DNA from: Pseudorhodobacter wandonensis
Lineage (GTDB): Bacteria; Pseudomonadota; Alphaproteobacteria; Rhodobacterales; Rhodobacteraceae
Direction: 5' to 3'
DNA length: 64,000 nucleotides
Assembly: GCF_001202035.1 (NCBI RefSeq)
Contig: NZ_LGHT01000026.1
Location: forward strand, 1 to 64,000
The notes beneath the pieces were generated by a model, which saw nothing but the letters and a program-made list of their open reading frames with translations, did no database searches and was not told where the DNA came from. Shown here in pieces: positions 58,377 through 64,000 of the stretch. Position 1 is the first letter of the stretch, and the number at the start of each line of letters is the position of its first letter. The position numbers and the translations under genes are program-made.

Positions 58377-58411
58377 ACGTCGCGATGACGTCGCCATATA
58401 AGGCCGATCCA

Positions 58412-59461
58412 ATGACTACACCCACCACCCCAGCAGGCGACCGCATCGCCAAAGTTCTATCCCGCGTCGGCGTAGCCTCGCGCCGCGAAGCAGAGCGGAT
58501 GATCGAACTCGGCCAAGTCGCCGTGAACGGCAAAATCATCGACAGCCCCGCGCTCAACGTCACGCCCAGCGACCGCATCACGGTTGATGGCCAACCCATC
58601 GGCCAGCCCGAACCCGCGCGGCTCTGGCTCTATTACAAACCCGACGGCCTCGTCACATCAAACAGCGATGAAAAGGGCCGCGACACGATATTCGATCACC
58701 TTCCCGAAGATCTGCCCCGCGTCATGTCCGTCGGCCGCCTCGATCTCAACTCCGAAGGGCTGCTTTTGCTGACCAATGACGGCGGGCTGAAACGCAAGCT
58801 GGAACTGCCCTCAACCGGTTGGCTGCGCAAATACCGCGTCCGCGTGAATGGCAACCCCACCGATGTCGATCTCGAACCGCTGCGCCGTGGCATCACTGTC
58901 GAGGGCGAAAAATTCCAGCCGATGATCGTTGTCCTCGACCGTATCCAAGGCGCCAATGCCTGGCTGACCGTGGGCCTGCGCGAAGGTAAAAACCGCGAAA
59001 TCCGCCGCGCCATGATGGCGATCAACTTGACCGTGAACCGTTTGATCCGCGTCAGCTATGGCCCGTTCCGTCTGGGCGAGCTGACCCCCGGCGAAGTGAC
59101 CGAGGTCAAAGGCCGCGTGCTGCGCGACCAGCTTGGCCAGCGCGAATTGCCCGAAGATGCCGTCGCCCCTGTGCCACGTGCGCCCCGCGCCAAAGGTCCG
59201 CGCATTTCCAAACCCGGCCCGAAACCCGCCGCAAAACCCATGGCGGCCCCCAGCACAAATCGCGGCCCCAAAACCGGTGACACGGCCAAAACCACGGCCC
59301 CAGCCAAAGCACGGTTTACCAAGCCCCGCACACCAGTCGCAGAGGCGCAAACCATCGAAAAGCCCATACGCGCCAAACCGGTAGCCAAACGCACCGCCCC
59401 GTCCCGCAATGCCGCCCAGCCTGCCACCAAAAGCGGCAAACCAGCGAATCGTCGCCCATGA
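58412..59461 (+). CDS. rluB: 23S rRNA pseudouridine synthase, RluB-type
   Basis: 349 residues. S4 RNA-binding domain (about 11-60; IAKVLSRVGVASRREAERMI), then the RsuA-family catalytic domain (about 68-230) with catalytic Asp in VGRLDLNSEGLLLLTNDG (about 110-127) and GLREGKNREIRRAM (about 190-203). Residues about 240-349 are a basic Lys/Pro/Ala-rich tail, as in many RluB. The ATG at 58412 with AAGG 8 nt before it is preferred to 58385. Probably modifies U2605 of 23S rRNA (E. coli numbering). Confidence 0.92.
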   Translation: MTTPTTPAGDRIAKVLSRVGVASRREAERMIELGQVAVNGKIIDSPALNVTPSDRITVDGQPIGQPEPARLWLYYKPDGLVTSNSDEKGRDTIFDHLPEDLPRVMSVGRLDLNSEGLLLLTNDGGLKRKLELPSTGWLRKYRVRVNGNPTDVDLEPLRRGITVEGEKFQPMIVVLDRIQGANAWLTVGLREGKNREIRRAMMAINLTVNRLIRVSYGPFRLGELTPGEVTEVKGRVLRDQLGQRELPEDAVAPVPRAPRAKGPRISKPGPKPAAKPMAAPSTNRGPKTGDTAKTTAPAKARFTKPRTPVAEAQTIEKPIRAKPVAKRTAPSRNAAQPATKSGKPANRRP

Positions 59462-59470
59462 AACGTGTTA

Positions 59471-59498
59471 GCGGGGAATAAACTCTGCAATTCCCCGC
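59471..59498 (+). terminator. Hairpin downstream of rluB
   Basis: GCGGGGAAT / ATTCCCCGC, 9-bp perfect stem with 10-nt loop, 10 nt after the rluB stop; no T tract. Confidence 0.55.
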
Positions 59499-59615: not shown

Positions 59616-59699
59616 ATGTCTTCAAACGGGTTGAAAACGCTATCCTTTTTGCTGCTTGTCGCGCTGACGTTTTACGTAGCCAGCTTGGGGTCGATCTGA
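59616..59699 (+). CDS. 27-residue single-helix membrane microprotein
   Basis: Too short for usual gene calling. The ATG at 59616 has AAGGGG 7 nt upstream. The product has a short polar N-terminus (MSSNGLKT) and one hydrophobic helix (LSFLLLVALTFYVASLG, about 9-25). Its TGA overlaps the ATG of the XpaC-like gene by one base (TGATG), the usual sign of translational coupling. This reading also explains the start of the downstream gene better than the long in-frame GTG start at 59543. No known family recognised. Existence is inferred from signals only. Confidence 0.6.
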   Translation: MSSNGLKTLSFLLLVALTFYVASLGSI

Positions 59700-60574
59700 T
59701 GGCACAACGTTTTGGCGGCAAATTCAGCCCTACTGGTGGCCCCTCGGGCCCCACCCCCGACAATAAGGGTTTTCAAACCAAACGCCCGACCAAGGCGGGG
59801 TTTCGCTCTAACTTGCTGTTTTTCCTTCCTGTCCCGTTCTTGTGGAAAGCGTTTTTCGAGGATCCGATCACCCTGATAATGGGTCTTGTCACCACTGCCT
59901 TGATGCTGCTCGGGGCGTGGCTTACCCGCGAAGGCCTGTTCGCCCAAGAGGCGTATGAGGCCCGCAGTATCGCCCGCCGCCCCGCTTTGCCGCGCAAAAT
60001 CATCGGCGCTGTGCTGATCGGCCTCGGCTTGGGCTGCGGCGCGCTTATGTCGGGCCAAAGCAGCCTTATTGCCATTGCTTTGGCAACGCTTGGCGCCTTT
60101 TTGCACCTTGGCACGTTCGGCTTTGACCCGCTGGCCAACAAAGGCGTCGAAGGGCTGGATGATTTTCAAACCGACCGTGTGGCCAAAGCCGTTGATACCG
60201 GCGAGGCCCATCTGAAAGCGATGAAAGACGCGATCTTGCGCGCCCGTGACCGCCAGCTTGAAGGGCGCGTCGATCACTTTGCCGATACCGCGCGCGCCCT
60301 GTTTCGCACCGTTGAAAACGACCCGCGCGATCTGACTGCGGCCCGAAAATATCTGGGCATCTACCTGCAAGGCGCGCGTGAGGCGACCATCAAGTTTGTC
60401 GATCTCTATGCCCAGAACCGCGATGCCAAGATGCGTGCCGATTATGACGCTTTGCTAACCGATCTGGAAACCAATTTCGCCAGCCGCACGACGGCACTTT
60501 TGTCTGACAATCACACTGATCTGAACGTCGAAATAGAGGTCTTGCGGGAACGTCTGGCCTTTGAAAACCGTTAA
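59699..60574 (+). CDS. XpaC-like protein (5-bromo-4-chloroindolyl phosphate hydrolysis family)
   Basis: 291 residues. N-terminal polar region (about 1-32), two or three membrane helices (about 36-68, LLFFLPVPFLWKAF and ITLIMGLVTTALMLLGAWL, and about 100-135), then the cytosolic XpaC helical domain (about 150-285; LDDFQTDRVAKAVDTGEAHLKAM, ARKYLGIYLQGAREATIKFVDLY). The family name comes from a colour assay in Bacillus; the true function is unknown. It is often a neighbour of TelA. Start coupled to the microprotein. Confidence 0.8.
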   Translation: MAQRFGGKFSPTGGPSGPTPDNKGFQTKRPTKAGFRSNLLFFLPVPFLWKAFFEDPITLIMGLVTTALMLLGAWLTREGLFAQEAYEARSIARRPALPRKIIGAVLIGLGLGCGALMSGQSSLIAIALATLGAFLHLGTFGFDPLANKGVEGLDDFQTDRVAKAVDTGEAHLKAMKDAILRARDRQLEGRVDHFADTARALFRTVENDPRDLTAARKYLGIYLQGAREATIKFVDLYAQNRDAKMRADYDALLTDLETNFASRTTALLSDNHTDLNVEIEVLRERLAFENR

Positions 60575-60607
60575 TCGCACCCTGTGCGCAATAGAGTGAG
60601 AGTATCC

Positions 60608-61792
60608 ATGGCCGAAACCATCCAACAAAAAGCCACCGCCGCCTTGGCAGAGGTCGAAGCCGTTACCGCAGTTGTGCTGCCCGAACCGGGCCGCGATTTG
60701 GTGACGCTCGACGCAGCCGCCCCGGCCCATGCCGCCGAAATCCAAAAGCGGATGGCGGAAATCGATATGACCAACACCCAGTCGATCATCTCATTCGGTT
60801 CCAGCGCGCAAACCGAATTGCAGGTGATTTCGCAGGCGATGCTGGCCGATGTTAAAAACAAGGATGTCGGCCCCGCGGGTGACAGCCTGCGCAACATGGT
60901 CAGCACCATTCGCGGCTTTTCGGTTTCCGAACTTGACGTGCGCCGCAAACGCACTTGGTGGGAAAGATTGCTGGGCCGCGCCGCCCCCTTTGCCAATTTC
61001 GTGGCGAAATTCGAAAACGTCCAAGGCCAGATTGACAACATCACCGAAACCTTGCTGGGCCATGAGCATACCCTGCTAAAAGACATCAAATCGCTGGATG
61101 TGCTTTATGATAAAACCCTGACTTTCTATGATGAACTGGCACTTTACATTGCGGCAGGCGAGGCCAAGATCAAAGATCTTGATGCCAATGACATCCCTGC
61201 AAAAGAGGCCGAGGTTTCTGCCGTTGCCGAAGAAAAACAGGTGATGAAAGCGCAGGAATTGCGCGATCTGCGCGCCGCACGTGATGACCTTGAACGCCGC
61301 GTGCATGACTTGAAACTGACCCGTCAGGTGACGATGCAATCCTTGCCTTCAATCCGTTTGGTGCAGGAAAACGACAAATCCTTGGTGACCAAGATCAACT
61401 CGACCTTGGTGAACACCGTGCCATTGTGGGAAACGCAGCTGGCGCAGGCTGTGACCATTCAACGCTCGCGCGAAGCTGCCGAGAGCATTCGCGCGGCCAA
61501 TGATCTGACCAATGAACTGCTGACCTCAAACGCCGAAAACTTGCAACAAACCAACCGTATCGTGCGCACCGAAATGGAACGCGGCGTGTTTGATATCGAA
61601 GCGGTGAAAAAGGCCAACGCAACGCTGATCGCCACGATCAACGAAAGCCTTGCCATTGCCGATGCGGGCAAAGCCAAACGCGCCGCCGCCGAGGCGGATC
61701 TGGTCAAGATGGAGCATGATCTGCGCGATACCCTTGCCTCGGCCAAGGCCCGCAAGGATGGTTTGGGCGATACGATCGGTGTCAAAGCGTAA
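60608..61792 (+). CDS. TelA/KlaA-family toxic anion resistance protein
   Basis: 394 residues, almost wholly alpha-helical with coiled-coil stretches. Core blocks: KRTWWERLLGRAAPFANFVAKFE (about 117-139), NIDNITETLLGHEHTLLKDIKSLDVLYDKTL region (about 143-175), and VPLWETQLAQAVTIQRSREAAE (about 274-295). Members were found in tellurite-resistance plasmids, but chromosomal copies probably act in envelope stress. ATG at 60608 follows GAGTGAGAG. Second protein gene of the cassette, 33 nt after XpaC. Confidence 0.88.
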   Translation: MAETIQQKATAALAEVEAVTAVVLPEPGRDLVTLDAAAPAHAAEIQKRMAEIDMTNTQSIISFGSSAQTELQVISQAMLADVKNKDVGPAGDSLRNMVSTIRGFSVSELDVRRKRTWWERLLGRAAPFANFVAKFENVQGQIDNITETLLGHEHTLLKDIKSLDVLYDKTLTFYDELALYIAAGEAKIKDLDANDIPAKEAEVSAVAEEKQVMKAQELRDLRAARDDLERRVHDLKLTRQVTMQSLPSIRLVQENDKSLVTKINSTLVNTVPLWETQLAQAVTIQRSREAAESIRAANDLTNELLTSNAENLQQTNRIVRTEMERGVFDIEAVKKANATLIATINESLAIADAGKAKRAAAEADLVKMEHDLRDTLASAKARKDGLGDTIGVKA

Positions 61793-61814
61793 GTCGACAA
61801 CAGAAAGCACAGCT

Positions 61815-62798
61815 ATGCCCTCCGTGGTGGCACACGCGCCAAACACTCAGCACCGGACTGCCCATAAACTACTGATTGCTGCCTCGGCCGTGCTTTTGGC
61901 GGGCTGCGTTTTAAACACCCCACCCGTCACCGGGCGGGCCGCCTTGCCGCCGCCCCCACGCGGGGCCGATGGTCAAGCAGCGGCCAAACCCTCGGCCGCA
62001 AGCGAAAACCTGCGCAAATACTACGCGGGTGTGCAGGCCGAGCTGTTGTCGCAAGGTTTGATGCGCACCGATACGGGGGCCAAAGACGCGCCCTTTAATG
62101 CCCGCATGTTGGCAAATAACTTCGTGCGCATCGCGTTCTTTGATGAATTTGACAGCTCTTCCGGAACGCTGGTGGCGCGTGCGACCGAAAAACGCCTGCG
62201 CCGCTGGGACAAACCGGTGCGCGTGGGCCTCGCCTTTGGCGATTCAGTGCCGCAGGATTTGCGCTCGATTGAAAGGGCGCGGGTGGCATCTTTTCTGGCG
62301 CGGTTAACACGGCTGACCGGCCATTCGATTCAACTGGCCGATAGCGGCATCAACTTTCACCTGCAGATTCTGAACGTTGACGAGCTTCGGGCGATTGGCC
62401 CCACCGTTCGCAGCACAGACCCGAGTATTGGCAGGCCAGAGCTGGAGTCGATCATCAACATGCCAGAATCGACCTATTGCCAGGTCACCTATTCGATTGA
62501 TGATTCCACCAACCTGATTGAGCGCGCCTTTGCCGTAATCCGCGCCGAACACCCTGATTTACTGCATTTATCTTGCCTGCACGAAGAAATTACCCAAGGC
62601 CTTGGCCTGCCCAATGACAGCCCGCAGGCCCGGCCCTCGATTTACAATGACGATCAGGAATTTGCCCTACTCACCCCGATGGATGAGCTGATGCTGCGCA
62701 TGCTTTATGACAAACGCCTGTCACCCGGCATGTCGATCACGCAGGCCCGCCCCATCATTGACCAACTCGCCCAAGAGCTTATCGGCGGCGACAGCTAG
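61815..62798 (+). CDS. DUF2927 lipoprotein
   Basis: 327 residues. Signal with lipobox LLAGC (Cys at about 31), a Pro-rich spacer to about 60, then the DUF2927 domain (about 90-320). It contains the segment CLHEEITQGLGLPNDS (about 254-269), which resembles the HExx-type zinc signature of metzincin proteases with an altered spacing, and ALLTPMDELMLRMLYDKRL near the end. No activity is established for the family. The ribosome-binding site before 61815 is weak (GAAAGCAC). Located between telA and the SPFH gene. Confidence 0.8.
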   Translation: MPSVVAHAPNTQHRTAHKLLIAASAVLLAGCVLNTPPVTGRAALPPPPRGADGQAAAKPSAASENLRKYYAGVQAELLSQGLMRTDTGAKDAPFNARMLANNFVRIAFFDEFDSSSGTLVARATEKRLRRWDKPVRVGLAFGDSVPQDLRSIERARVASFLARLTRLTGHSIQLADSGINFHLQILNVDELRAIGPTVRSTDPSIGRPELESIINMPESTYCQVTYSIDDSTNLIERAFAVIRAEHPDLLHLSCLHEEITQGLGLPNDSPQARPSIYNDDQEFALLTPMDELMLRMLYDKRLSPGMSITQARPIIDQLAQELIGGDS

Positions 62799-62809
62799 GA
62801 GTCCAGAAA

Positions 62810-63934
62810 ATGGTATTCGACTTTCTCAAAGGCCAGTTCATCGACGTCATCGCTTGGACAGATGACACCCGCGATACCATGGTCTGGCGGTTTGAACGCC
62901 AAGGCAATGAAATCAAATACGGTGCCAAGCTGACAGTGCGCGAAGGCCAAGCCGCTGTTTTTGTTCACGAAGGCCAGATGGCCGATGTCTTTGGCCCCGG
63001 CTTGTACATGTTGGAAACCAACAACATGCCGATCATGACAGCGCTGCAACATTGGGACCACGGCTTTCAAAGCCCGTTCAAATCCGAGATCTATTTCATC
63101 AATACGACCCGCTTTAACGATCTGAAATGGGGCACCAAAAACCCGATCATGACGCGCGACCCCGAATTTGGCCCCGTGCGCATCCGCGCCTTTGGCACCT
63201 ATTCGATGCGCGTCACCGACCCTGCAAAATTCATGCAGGAAATCGTTGGCACCGATGGCGAATTCACGGCAGATGAAATCAGCTTTCAAATCCGCAACGT
63301 GATTTTGCAGGAAATGAGCCGCGCTTTGGCGGCCTCAAAAATTCCGGTGCTGGATATGGCGGCCAATACCGCCGATCTGGGCAAGCTGGTCGCCACAGCG
63401 ATCAACCCGCAAATTGCCGAATACGGGCTGTCACTGCCTGAGCTCTATATTGAAAACATCTCGTTGCCCCAAGAGGTTGAAAAAGCACTGGATAAACGCA
63501 CCTCGATGGGTATCGTCGGTGACTTGAACCGCTATACCCAGTTCAGCGCCGCCGAGGCACTGGCGCAACCCGGATCGGCCATGGGGGCCGCGATGGGGGC
63601 TGGTATGGGCGCCGGCATGGGGATGGGCTTGGCCCAGCAAATGGCGCCGCAGAATATGGGGCCATGGGGCGCCATGCCTGCCGCCGCAGCCGCACAAACC
63701 CCTCCGCCACCGCCACCACCAGCGCCGGAAAGACTGTGGCACACCGCCCAGAATGGCACCACAGCAGGCCCGTTTTCGCGCAGCCACCTTGGCCGCATGA
63801 TCACCGAAGGCAGCTTTGCCCGTGACACGATGGTCTGGACGGCAGGTCAGGACGGCTGGAAACCAGCGGGCGAGATTGCCGAACTGGCCCAGCTTTTCAC
63901 CGTGGCGCCGCCGCCACCCCCACCCGGGGCGTAA
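62810..63934 (+). CDS. SPFH-domain protein with C-terminal GYF domain (YdjI-like)
   Basis: 374 residues. SPFH/band-7-like domain at about 25-240 (KLTVREGQAAVFVHEGQMADVF, FGPVRIRAFGTYSMRVTDPAKFM, YGLSLPELYIENISLP). A flexible linker rich in Gly, Met and Ala (about 258-285) and a Pro run follow, then a GYF_2-type domain (about 304-365; WHTAQNGTTAGPFSRSHLGRMI, MVWTAGQDGWKPAGEI). SPFH proteins organise membrane microdomains; the Bacillus relative YdjI recruits PspA to membranes. Starts 11 nt after the DUF2927 gene with TAGGAG upstream. Confidence 0.87.
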   Translation: MVFDFLKGQFIDVIAWTDDTRDTMVWRFERQGNEIKYGAKLTVREGQAAVFVHEGQMADVFGPGLYMLETNNMPIMTALQHWDHGFQSPFKSEIYFINTTRFNDLKWGTKNPIMTRDPEFGPVRIRAFGTYSMRVTDPAKFMQEIVGTDGEFTADEISFQIRNVILQEMSRALAASKIPVLDMAANTADLGKLVATAINPQIAEYGLSLPELYIENISLPQEVEKALDKRTSMGIVGDLNRYTQFSAAEALAQPGSAMGAAMGAGMGAGMGMGLAQQMAPQNMGPWGAMPAAAAAQTPPPPPPPAPERLWHTAQNGTTAGPFSRSHLGRMITEGSFARDTMVWTAGQDGWKPAGEIAELAQLFTVAPPPPPPGA

Positions 63935-63937
63935 ACC

Positions 63938-64000
63938 GTGAGCGCCGACCAAGAACACCGCTGGCCCTGCGACAGTTGCGGGGCCGACCTGCGCTTTGCG
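63938..64000 (+). CDS. Zinc-ribbon protein, N-terminal fragment at window end
   Basis: GTG start 4 nt after the SPFH stop. The 21 visible codons give MSADQEHRWPCDSCGADLRF and one more residue, with a CxxC knuckle at about 11-14 typical of a zinc ribbon. The remainder lies outside the window. A TFIIB-type zinc-ribbon protein is expected by analogy with Bacillus YdjG next to YdjI. Confidence 0.65.
   Translation, partial: MSADQEHRWPCDSCGADLRFA

Follow-up and report, generated by a model that had tools for sequence, protein, structure and literature searches.

The window analysed here, the whole 64,000-nucleotide stretch from position 1 to 64,000 of contig NZ_LGHT01000026.1 (forward strand) of Pseudorhodobacter wandonensis, ends in a set of six plus-strand genes that encode, in order, a 27-residue membrane microprotein, XpaC, TelA, a DUF2927 lipoprotein, an SPFH protein with a GYF domain (SPFH-GYF) and a double-zinc-ribbon membrane protein (Table 1). 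Read from the sequence, the spacing between successive genes is -1, 33, 22, 11 and 3 nucleotides (nt), and the packed, one-directional cassette described in the first-pass annotation stands, with all of the named genes on the plus strand and separated by short gaps. Followed downstream, as that annotation had proposed, the sixth gene runs on as a zinc-ribbon protein gene to contig position 65044 (4939-6045 of L002; loci are cited by L number) and lies mostly outside the window, with a purC-like gene, assigned by eye, about 350 bp further on. The upstream neighbour is an S4/pseudouridine-synthase gene (58385-59461). The closest relative of the DUF2927 protein comes from a Pseudorhodobacter metagenome-assembled genome, and the SPFH protein is 82.5% identical to its counterpart in Pseudorhodobacter turbinis.

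Table 1. Features of the six-gene locus, in window coordinates.
Feature	Position	Strand	Description
Inverted repeat, perfect 9-bp	59471..59498	none	GCGGGGAAT...ATTCCCCGC; read in the sequence; possible terminator or operator
microORF, 27-residue single-pass membrane microprotein	59616..59699	+	MSSNGLKTLSFLLLVALTFYVASLGSI; stop overlaps XpaC start by one base (TGATG)
XpaC	59699..60574	+	PF10112 at 92.1 bits (cut-off 29.8); Pro/Ser-rich N-terminus, predicted transmembrane segments, C-terminal PF10112 domain
TelA	60608..61792	+	PF05816 at 352.3 bits; predicted cytoplasmic, all-helical
DUF2927 lipoprotein	61815..62798	+	PF11150 at 200.9 bits; lipobox Cys31
SPFH-GYF protein	62810..63934	+	PF13421 (Band_7_1) at 347.1 bits; PF14237 (GYF_2) at 68.4 bits (cut-off 25.8); SPFH (Band_7_1), Met/Ala/Gly and Pro linker, GYF_2, poly-Pro C-terminal tail (VAPPPPPPGA)
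Zinc-ribbon protein, 368 residues, YdjG-like	63938..64000	+	GTG start at 63938; first 63 bases only in window

Conservation of the locus was evaluated in a family sample of 120 Rhodobacteraceae genomes, one per genus, in which TelA was found in 105, Band_7_1 SPFH in 106 (one of them weak, at 27.9 bits) and DUF2927 in 114. Two sets of loci were compared, one consisting of 104 other full-length family TelA loci and the other of 80 loci chosen via a DUF2927 search; since the sets overlap in part (e.g., L078/L133 and L088/L147), counts pooled over both are not fully independent. The order XpaC-TelA-DUF2927-SPFH-zinc-ribbon protein was present in 83 of the 104 loci, the same number being returned by a simpler search, while 9 loci ran off the contig and 12 differed, including two with no DUF2927 match and two with no XpaC match (L077, L093). 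The five genes were likewise ordered in 67 of the 80 DUF2927-search loci (43+14+4+3+2+1), and several of the other 13 are short contigs. A pseudouridine-synthase gene lay upstream on the same strand in 81 of the 104 loci. The first-pass annotation had named a lack of conserved synteny outside this strain as grounds for abandoning its proposal, and the gene order proved instead to recur in other genera. The cassette is a conserved operon, more than chance or a local oddity, and persists across a large bacterial family with marine and freshwater members.

The conservation extends to the microprotein. In 101 of 103 loci the start of XpaC coincided with the end of a hydrophobic open reading frame of at most 70 residues, compared with 0/105, 0/99, 2/96, 6/88 and 2/79 for the control starts of TelA, DUF2927, SPFH, zinc-ribbon protein and pseudouridine synthase, respectively. 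A profile trained on 52 loci recovered the microprotein ahead of XpaC in 49 of the 50 loci kept back from training (44 at E<=0.01); it matched at no other place with E<=0.01 among the 18651 reading frames scanned, and in the nine non-family loci included it gave one weak, misplaced match (E 2.8). The microprotein was present at 172 of 179 XpaC loci of a larger set that partly overlaps the first. In the two large length classes, codon position 3 was more variable than positions 1 and 2 (0.53 versus 0.70/0.80, n=86; 0.55 versus 0.69/0.79, n=39), the pattern being less clear for a 28-residue class (0.53 versus 0.54/0.59, n=21). A ribosome-site-like motif preceded the microORF in 74 of 172 cases versus 18 of 172 random places, and in 105 loci its end overlapped the XpaC start by -1 or -4. 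Given this conservation, codon-position pattern, ribosome-site motif and overlap, the microORF is very likely a real, translated gene coupled to XpaC.

The DUF2927 lipoprotein was modelled from a structure alignment of 70 orthologues, for which 69 of the 77 full-length frames from the 80 loci were used, and the model reached a predicted local distance difference test score (pLDDT) of 92.6 and a predicted template-modelling score (pTM) of 0.91. In a Foldseek search of the PDB, matrix metalloproteinases (MMPs) and further metzincins ranked highest (best E 5.3e-3, probability 0.99; no E below 0.001), with one unrelated entry (4f3n, probability 0.06) among the 50 matches listed. VIA-align placed the model on MMP-9, MMP-7 and karilysin with Z of 11.4-11.6 over 147-151 residues and a root-mean-square deviation of 2.7-3.0, all 50 of the matches listed being MMPs or karilysin (Z 10.7-11.6), and the best hits among the BFVD viral models were a phage Zn-dependent protease (5.4e-5) and an M10 domain (9.3e-4). 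DUF2927 is thus confidently modelled with a matrix-metalloproteinase (metzincin) fold, which would provide this family with a structural identity. The likeness to the metzincin metallopeptidases (MMPs and karilysin) lies in the predicted fold, with Z 11.6 over 150 residues, whereas identity in the aligned parts is 10-14%, and the His ligands of HExxHxxGxxH and the Met of the Met-turn are replaced.

In the window protein the metzincin HExxHxxG helix reads CLHEEITQGLGLPND, so that the HExxHxxG...H site has become EExxQxxG...D, with the altered site at E257-E258-x-x-Q261-x-x-G264-x-x-N267-D268. All six named residues (E257, E258, Q261, G264, N267 and D268) were invariant in the 70-row alignment. 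ExxQxxGxxN was present in 186 of 188 DUF2927 frames, each with Glu before and Asp after; because the search itself required ExxQxxGxxN, only the first Glu and the Asp (both 186) were counted freely. The window's gene is represented repeatedly among the 188 frames (L001, L002, L004), and some of the frames come from outside the family. At the Met-turn place the aligned cassette-type rows read PSI[FY]ND or PSVFND, and L014 reads PSVLNS, none with Met. Distant DUF2927 proteins keep the canonical motif (HEMGHVMGLRFH then SVM in L225; HELMHALGFPGH in L226), and a cassette member, L014, is intermediate (EELMHLMGMLNH); the motif register of the cassette proteins is supported by their alignment with the distant proteins. 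As an observation in its own right, the distant proteins at L225:5812-6369 and L226:5258-5770, with HExxHxxGxxxH, are possibly active metallopeptidases. The alignments indicate that cassette DUF2927 shares ancestry with the His-type metzincins, through H to E, H to Q and H to D replacements with the catalytic Glu place kept. The first-pass annotation had described a lipoprotein with a protease-like motif, and of this the protease likeness survives in the predicted fold, whereas the metal-site residues are changed. Since neither the zinc motif nor the Met-turn Met is found in it, cassette DUF2927 is not filed as a metzincin peptidase. The oxygen ligands of the altered site would be better suited to Mn or Ca than to Zn. 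A simple pattern detected a lipobox in 156 of 178 DUF2927 proteins, and the residue after the Cys varies, being Asp in 33.

The next protein is SPFH-GYF, and a transmembrane segment is missing from 172 of its 173 homologues. The first-pass annotation had the GYF domain binding Pro-rich parts of the partner proteins. This is not supported, since runs of at least three Pro are rare in XpaC (14/178), TelA (3/184) and the zinc-ribbon protein (23/160) and are conserved on the SPFH protein itself (163/173). Such runs also occur in 48 of 178 DUF2927 proteins, but these are predicted exported lipoproteins, and the moderately Pro/Ser-rich N-terminus of XpaC is a qualification. Across the 173 SPFH proteins there were 297 runs of at least four Pro, of which 152 lie no more than 15 residues from the C-terminus, after GYF, and the remainder further inside, as in the linker of the window protein. 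The simplest reading is that GYF would bind the poly-Pro tail of the SPFH protein itself, in a head-to-tail self-association, and this is likelier than partner binding. The nearest solved GYF relative is PDB 7z3c, 'Adventurous gliding motility protein X' (E 1.8e-4), in which the domain belongs to a gliding-motility protein, whereas in the window it is attached to an SPFH protein that has a Pro tail of its own.

The CxxC pairs of the zinc-ribbon protein would make up two zinc ribbons, and a hydrophobic segment lies at its C-terminus. No Pfam model exceeded its cut-off on the window protein, and the label comes from the CxxC pairs and from homology to an Enterococcus protein whose first ribbon scores 29.9 bits (cut-off 29). 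In Enterococcus, that protein belongs to an SPFH-ZnR-TPM trio (ZnR, zinc-ribbon protein). The window's zinc-ribbon protein aligned to it over nearly its full length (25% identity, E 6e-36), and the window's SPFH protein matched the SPFH protein of the same trio at E 7e-15.

In the window the PF10112 gene is followed directly by the PF05816 gene, as an XpaC-TelA pair. By simple hydropathy, at least one transmembrane segment was predicted in 176 of 178 XpaC homologues and none in any of 184 TelA homologues. The XpaC N-terminus (window 59699-59740) reads MAQ[RK][FY]GGK[FYH]SP in most of 25 homologues, a possible docking motif. In several loci without TerC (L016, L033, L035, L039, L049, L091), a second, diverged XpaC-like frame lies in tandem upstream of the microORF, at about 2.6-3.8 kb in the oriented locus. 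TelA was also considered as a stand-in for ESCRT-III or PspA, and this is not claimed, since its model has a pLDDT of 70.6 and no significant match, and the matches listed were mostly unrelated long-helix proteins.

Outside the family the parts are found in other combinations. TelA exceeded its cut-off in 12 of 142 genomes of a class-wide sample, and in a phylum sample (n=299) TelA passed in 45 genomes and Band_7_1 in 60, of which 35 scored above 200 bits. Among the non-family TelA loci read, 4 of 11 (L114, L115, L116, L122) contain XpaC-TelA-SPFH-ZnR without DUF2927. The SPFH-ZnR pair without XpaC-TelA alongside occurs in other Proteobacteria (L229, L231 and, weakly, L230), and also on plasmids of Vibrio, Comamonas and Tsukamurella. 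The domain appended to SPFH is GYF in the window, L114, L116, Vibrio and Tsukamurella, a helix-turn-helix in Comamonas, and in Enterococcus a zinc ribbon-like domain that falls below the cut-off. Within the family, L029, L040 and L065 have XpaC-TelA in a place of its own and their SPFH-ZnR pairs at L125, L126 and L127, and DUF2927-SPFH-ZnR of L021 is located elsewhere (L124); the operon therefore splits at module borders. L124-L127 thus mark a natural module border in four genomes. The simplest reading of these arrangements is that the operon consists of three modules, the first SPFH-ZnR, the second XpaC-TelA and the third DUF2927 with the microprotein, added specifically in this family.

The first-pass annotation had also remarked on the absence of PspA, and PF04012 has no match in the whole genome. 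No TPM-domain protein (YdjH) is encoded in the operon, one TPM gene being present on another contig (C25). The sigmaW regulon of Bacillus subtilis lists pspA-ydjGHI, xpaC-yaaN and yceCDEFGH as separate operons (PMC3498285). YdjI is required for PspA to reach the membrane and itself depends on YdjG and YdjH to get there (PMC8581546), YdjG being reported to combine two zinc ribbons with an NTF2-like domain and a transmembrane segment, within an SPFH-ZnR-TPM architecture for ydjGHI (PMC11237479). Because one operon here unites parts of these Bacillus stress-regulon pairs, a shared membrane-surveillance role is suggested. We therefore propose that the operon encodes a PspA-independent membrane-surveillance or repair scaffold of the YdjG-YdjI kind, a proposal to which we give about an even chance; the envelope-stress role, every interaction and the localisations are inferred by association. 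In its favour stand the gene order shared by most family loci, the alignment with the Enterococcus trio, the splitting at module borders, the Listeria findings on xpaC and telA given below and, as a lead only, the promoter-like element upstream of the microORF. The zinc-ribbon/transmembrane protein and XpaC would anchor a complex in the inner membrane, to which SPFH-GYF, with no transmembrane segment of its own, would be recruited and where it would oligomerise. GYF would bind the poly-Pro tail of the neighbouring SPFH subunit, and the assembly would spread or be capped. TelA, a long helical cytoplasmic protein, may dock on XpaC and the scaffold, and the microprotein could sit beside XpaC in the membrane and tune it. 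DUF2927 would form the periplasmic arm, with a predicted metzincin fold in which the zinc His set is changed to Glu, Gln and Asp, and would either bind a ligand without cutting or use another metal.

Several observations weigh against this proposal. The genes are often further apart in other loci, with an SPFH-ZnR gap of at least 200 nt in 35 of 87 loci having both in order, a DUF2927-SPFH gap of at least 200 nt in 17 of 93, and every gap below 150 nt in only 36 of 83 complete loci, so that the operon is not always one transcript. Where, in some loci, additional frames separate SPFH from ZnR or DUF2927 from SPFH, these frames are varied, with one cluster cytochrome b561-like by eye; they were treated as insertions, and the cluster table mixes in antisense frames. 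Two Paracoccus records (L128, L130) had neither an XpaC nor a microprotein match, and together with the gaps in the gene set of L077 and L093 they suggest that XpaC, and in L128 and L130 the microprotein too, is dispensable there. Of the 15 family genomes without TelA, 9 keep a DUF2927 gene, and it is cassette-like in the five read; DUF2927 may therefore have a separate job. The TelA model, from an alignment of 51 of the 77 full-length frames from the 80 loci, is weak (pLDDT 70.6), with no PDB match at E<=0.001 among 282 with E<=10. PspA exceeded its cut-off in 22 of the 120 family genomes and showed no clear link with the operon, a correlation being sought and not found (3 of 15 TelA-less versus 19 of 105 TelA-bearing genomes). 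An RpoE-type promoter pattern was found in 0 of 172 upstream regions, and the literature search turned up no expression, interaction or phenotype data on the operon. Separately, the two best PspA scores of the family sample (G163:C93:1133-1804 and G230:C2:91151-91819) belong to genomes without the TelA-SPFH operon, which are too few to build on.

A bolder form of the scaffold proposal, which we consider improbable, is that the operon encodes a transmembrane stress machine replacing PspA in Rhodobacteraceae. The SPFH-GYF scaffold inside, assembling itself, would be connected, via XpaC and the microprotein, to the periplasmic, predicted metzincin-fold DUF2927, which, with oxygen ligands in place of its zinc His residues, would have either a new metal specificity (e.g., Mn or Ca via TerC) or the role of a non-cutting sensor of envelope peptides.

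The operon could alternatively serve the maturation or quality control of exported metalloproteins, with DUF2927 as client or effector (an Mn/Ca hydrolase with Glu, Gln and Asp as ligands), TerC-type exporters supplying the metal and the scaffold serving secretion. A TerC-like gene is present at 18 of the 104 family TelA loci and 17 of the 80 DUF2927-search loci, PF03741 confirming TerC in L215 and L014, and it coincides with a pseudouridine synthase-XpaC gap above 900 nt in 13 of the 104; 13 other loci have such a gap without TerC, many of them with the second XpaC-like frame. In 3 of 5 TelA-less loci read, DUF2927 lies (by eye) near the same pseudouridine synthase, with TerC between in two of them; it adjoins DUF2927 in L212 and is separated from it by an extra 128-residue frame in L215, and L216 is without TerC. 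In these two loci (L212:610-2660 and L215:6086-8601), TerC thus stands by DUF2927 at the usual chromosomal place in genomes without TelA and SPFH. In B. subtilis, Mn exoenzymes are metalated by TerC proteins, which are recovered on purification together with secretion proteins, FtsH and flotillins (PMC10550928), and the substituted DUF2927 ligand positions, kept in 186 of 188 frames, are oxygen donors. However, the window's locus has no TerC-like frame, nor do most loci, the metal on DUF2927 is hypothetical, and the substitutions may equally mean a dead enzyme. We regard this explanation as rather unlikely, and the link to TerC makes the metalation idea worth keeping.

It is also quite unlikely, in our estimate, that the operon is a constitutive housekeeping organiser of the membrane, acting in shape, division or secretion, rather than a stress system. 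The frequency of TelA (105/120) and SPFH (106/120), the recurrence, in 81 of 104 loci, of the same co-oriented pseudouridine-synthase gene upstream and the missing RpoE-type pattern are all in keeping with such a role, but the operon is absent from 15 of the 120 genomes, some of them incomplete, and the Gram-positive counterparts are placed in stress regulons (PMC3498285). The anion stress raised in the first-pass annotation has two bases. The name of TelA in Pfam points to a tellurite or toxic-anion resistance module, and a Listeria telA mutant was reported, in a citation of an earlier paper, to be 2-fold more sensitive to tellurite; the same mutant was 4-fold more sensitive to nisin, the larger effect (PMC12791056), and the neighbouring genes indicate membrane scaffolding, which leaves this role very unlikely. 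A Vibrio coralliilyticus plasmid carries a related SPFH-ZnR pair close to TIR-domain and TRAFs-binding genes, but an anti-phage defence module is scarcely credible here, given a mostly fixed location, great frequency in the family, and a PADLOC scan of four operon proteins (the zinc-ribbon protein and microprotein not being among them) that gave a match at chance level only (Csm2, E 0.98). On that plasmid (L129), the two defence-type neighbours, with TIR and TRAFs-binding domains, lie upstream of the SPFH-GYF and zinc-ribbon genes and run the other way.

The region upstream of the microORF was scanned for regulatory signals. Consensus patterns of the RpoE, RpoH, sigma70 and CtrA types matched 0, 4, 1 and 1 of 172 regions (2.1, 0.6, 1.2 and 0.0 in shuffles) and are unsupported. 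An element of the form [CT]T[AG]GCA-N15-20-TA...T preceded the microORF in 56 of 179 loci and was present in 1 of 895 random windows; it is a lead only, because it was derived from and counted on the same sequences, and the window's own upstream region has no clean match to it. Scans of the operon were near chance for promoters (3 versus 2.6) and terminators (11 versus 9.1), and no Rfam family was found in it. The inverted repeat lies between the pseudouridine-synthase gene and the microORF and is not followed by a T run. G-run/C-run stretches resembling it were seen at the same place in the relatives L078, L088 and L109.

The operon is not described in the open-licence literature searched, and consists mostly of known parts in a new combination. 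That search found no paper uniting XpaC, TelA and SPFH, no description of the six-gene operon, and no paper with DUF2927. TelA and XpaC are not mentioned in the main text of the survey that describes YdjG (PMC11237479), the partial text on DalA, considered as a possible DUF2927 lipoprotein, gives no sign of it (PMC10470522), and none of the terms looked for is present in the CenKR paper (PMC9275681). The genes reported to change in Listeria under a bacteriocin include xpaC and telA alongside psp genes, the change in telA being modest, at 0.61 (PMC12791056). Beyond what the first-pass annotation held, this analysis contributes three points: DUF2927 has a predicted metzincin fold with an altered site, the microprotein is conserved, and self-assembly through GYF and the tail is put forward as a hypothesis. 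If the envelope-stress reading is true, the operon would be a candidate membrane guard of a major marine family that is usually without PspA.

Three B. subtilis systems bear comparison. TerC joins the XpaC-TelA locus in the loci counted above, a likeness to yceCDEFGH, an operon with the TerC protein MeeF/YceF in which YceH is a TelA paralogue and YceCDE are TerD-like, but the window's locus is one of those without TerC. The likeness to xpaC-yaaN and ydjGHI noted in the first-pass annotation is borne out by the adjacency of XpaC and TelA and by the alignment of the SPFH and zinc-ribbon proteins to the SPFH-ZnR-TPM trio. As in pspA-ydjGHI, an SPFH protein (YdjI there) stands beside a two-zinc-ribbon/transmembrane protein (YdjG), a likeness drawn via the Enterococcus trio; in contrast to that operon, PspA and the TPM protein (YdjH) are missing from the operon here, and the SPFH tail is GYF instead of a zinc ribbon. 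TelA directly follows XpaC, as in xpaC-yaaN and Listeria lmo1966-lmo1967, whereas here the pair is joined in one operon with SPFH-ZnR, DUF2927 and the microprotein. Gene pairs that in Bacillus belong to separate operons of one stress regulon are thereby united, and the role of XpaC and TelA becomes addressable in one operon.

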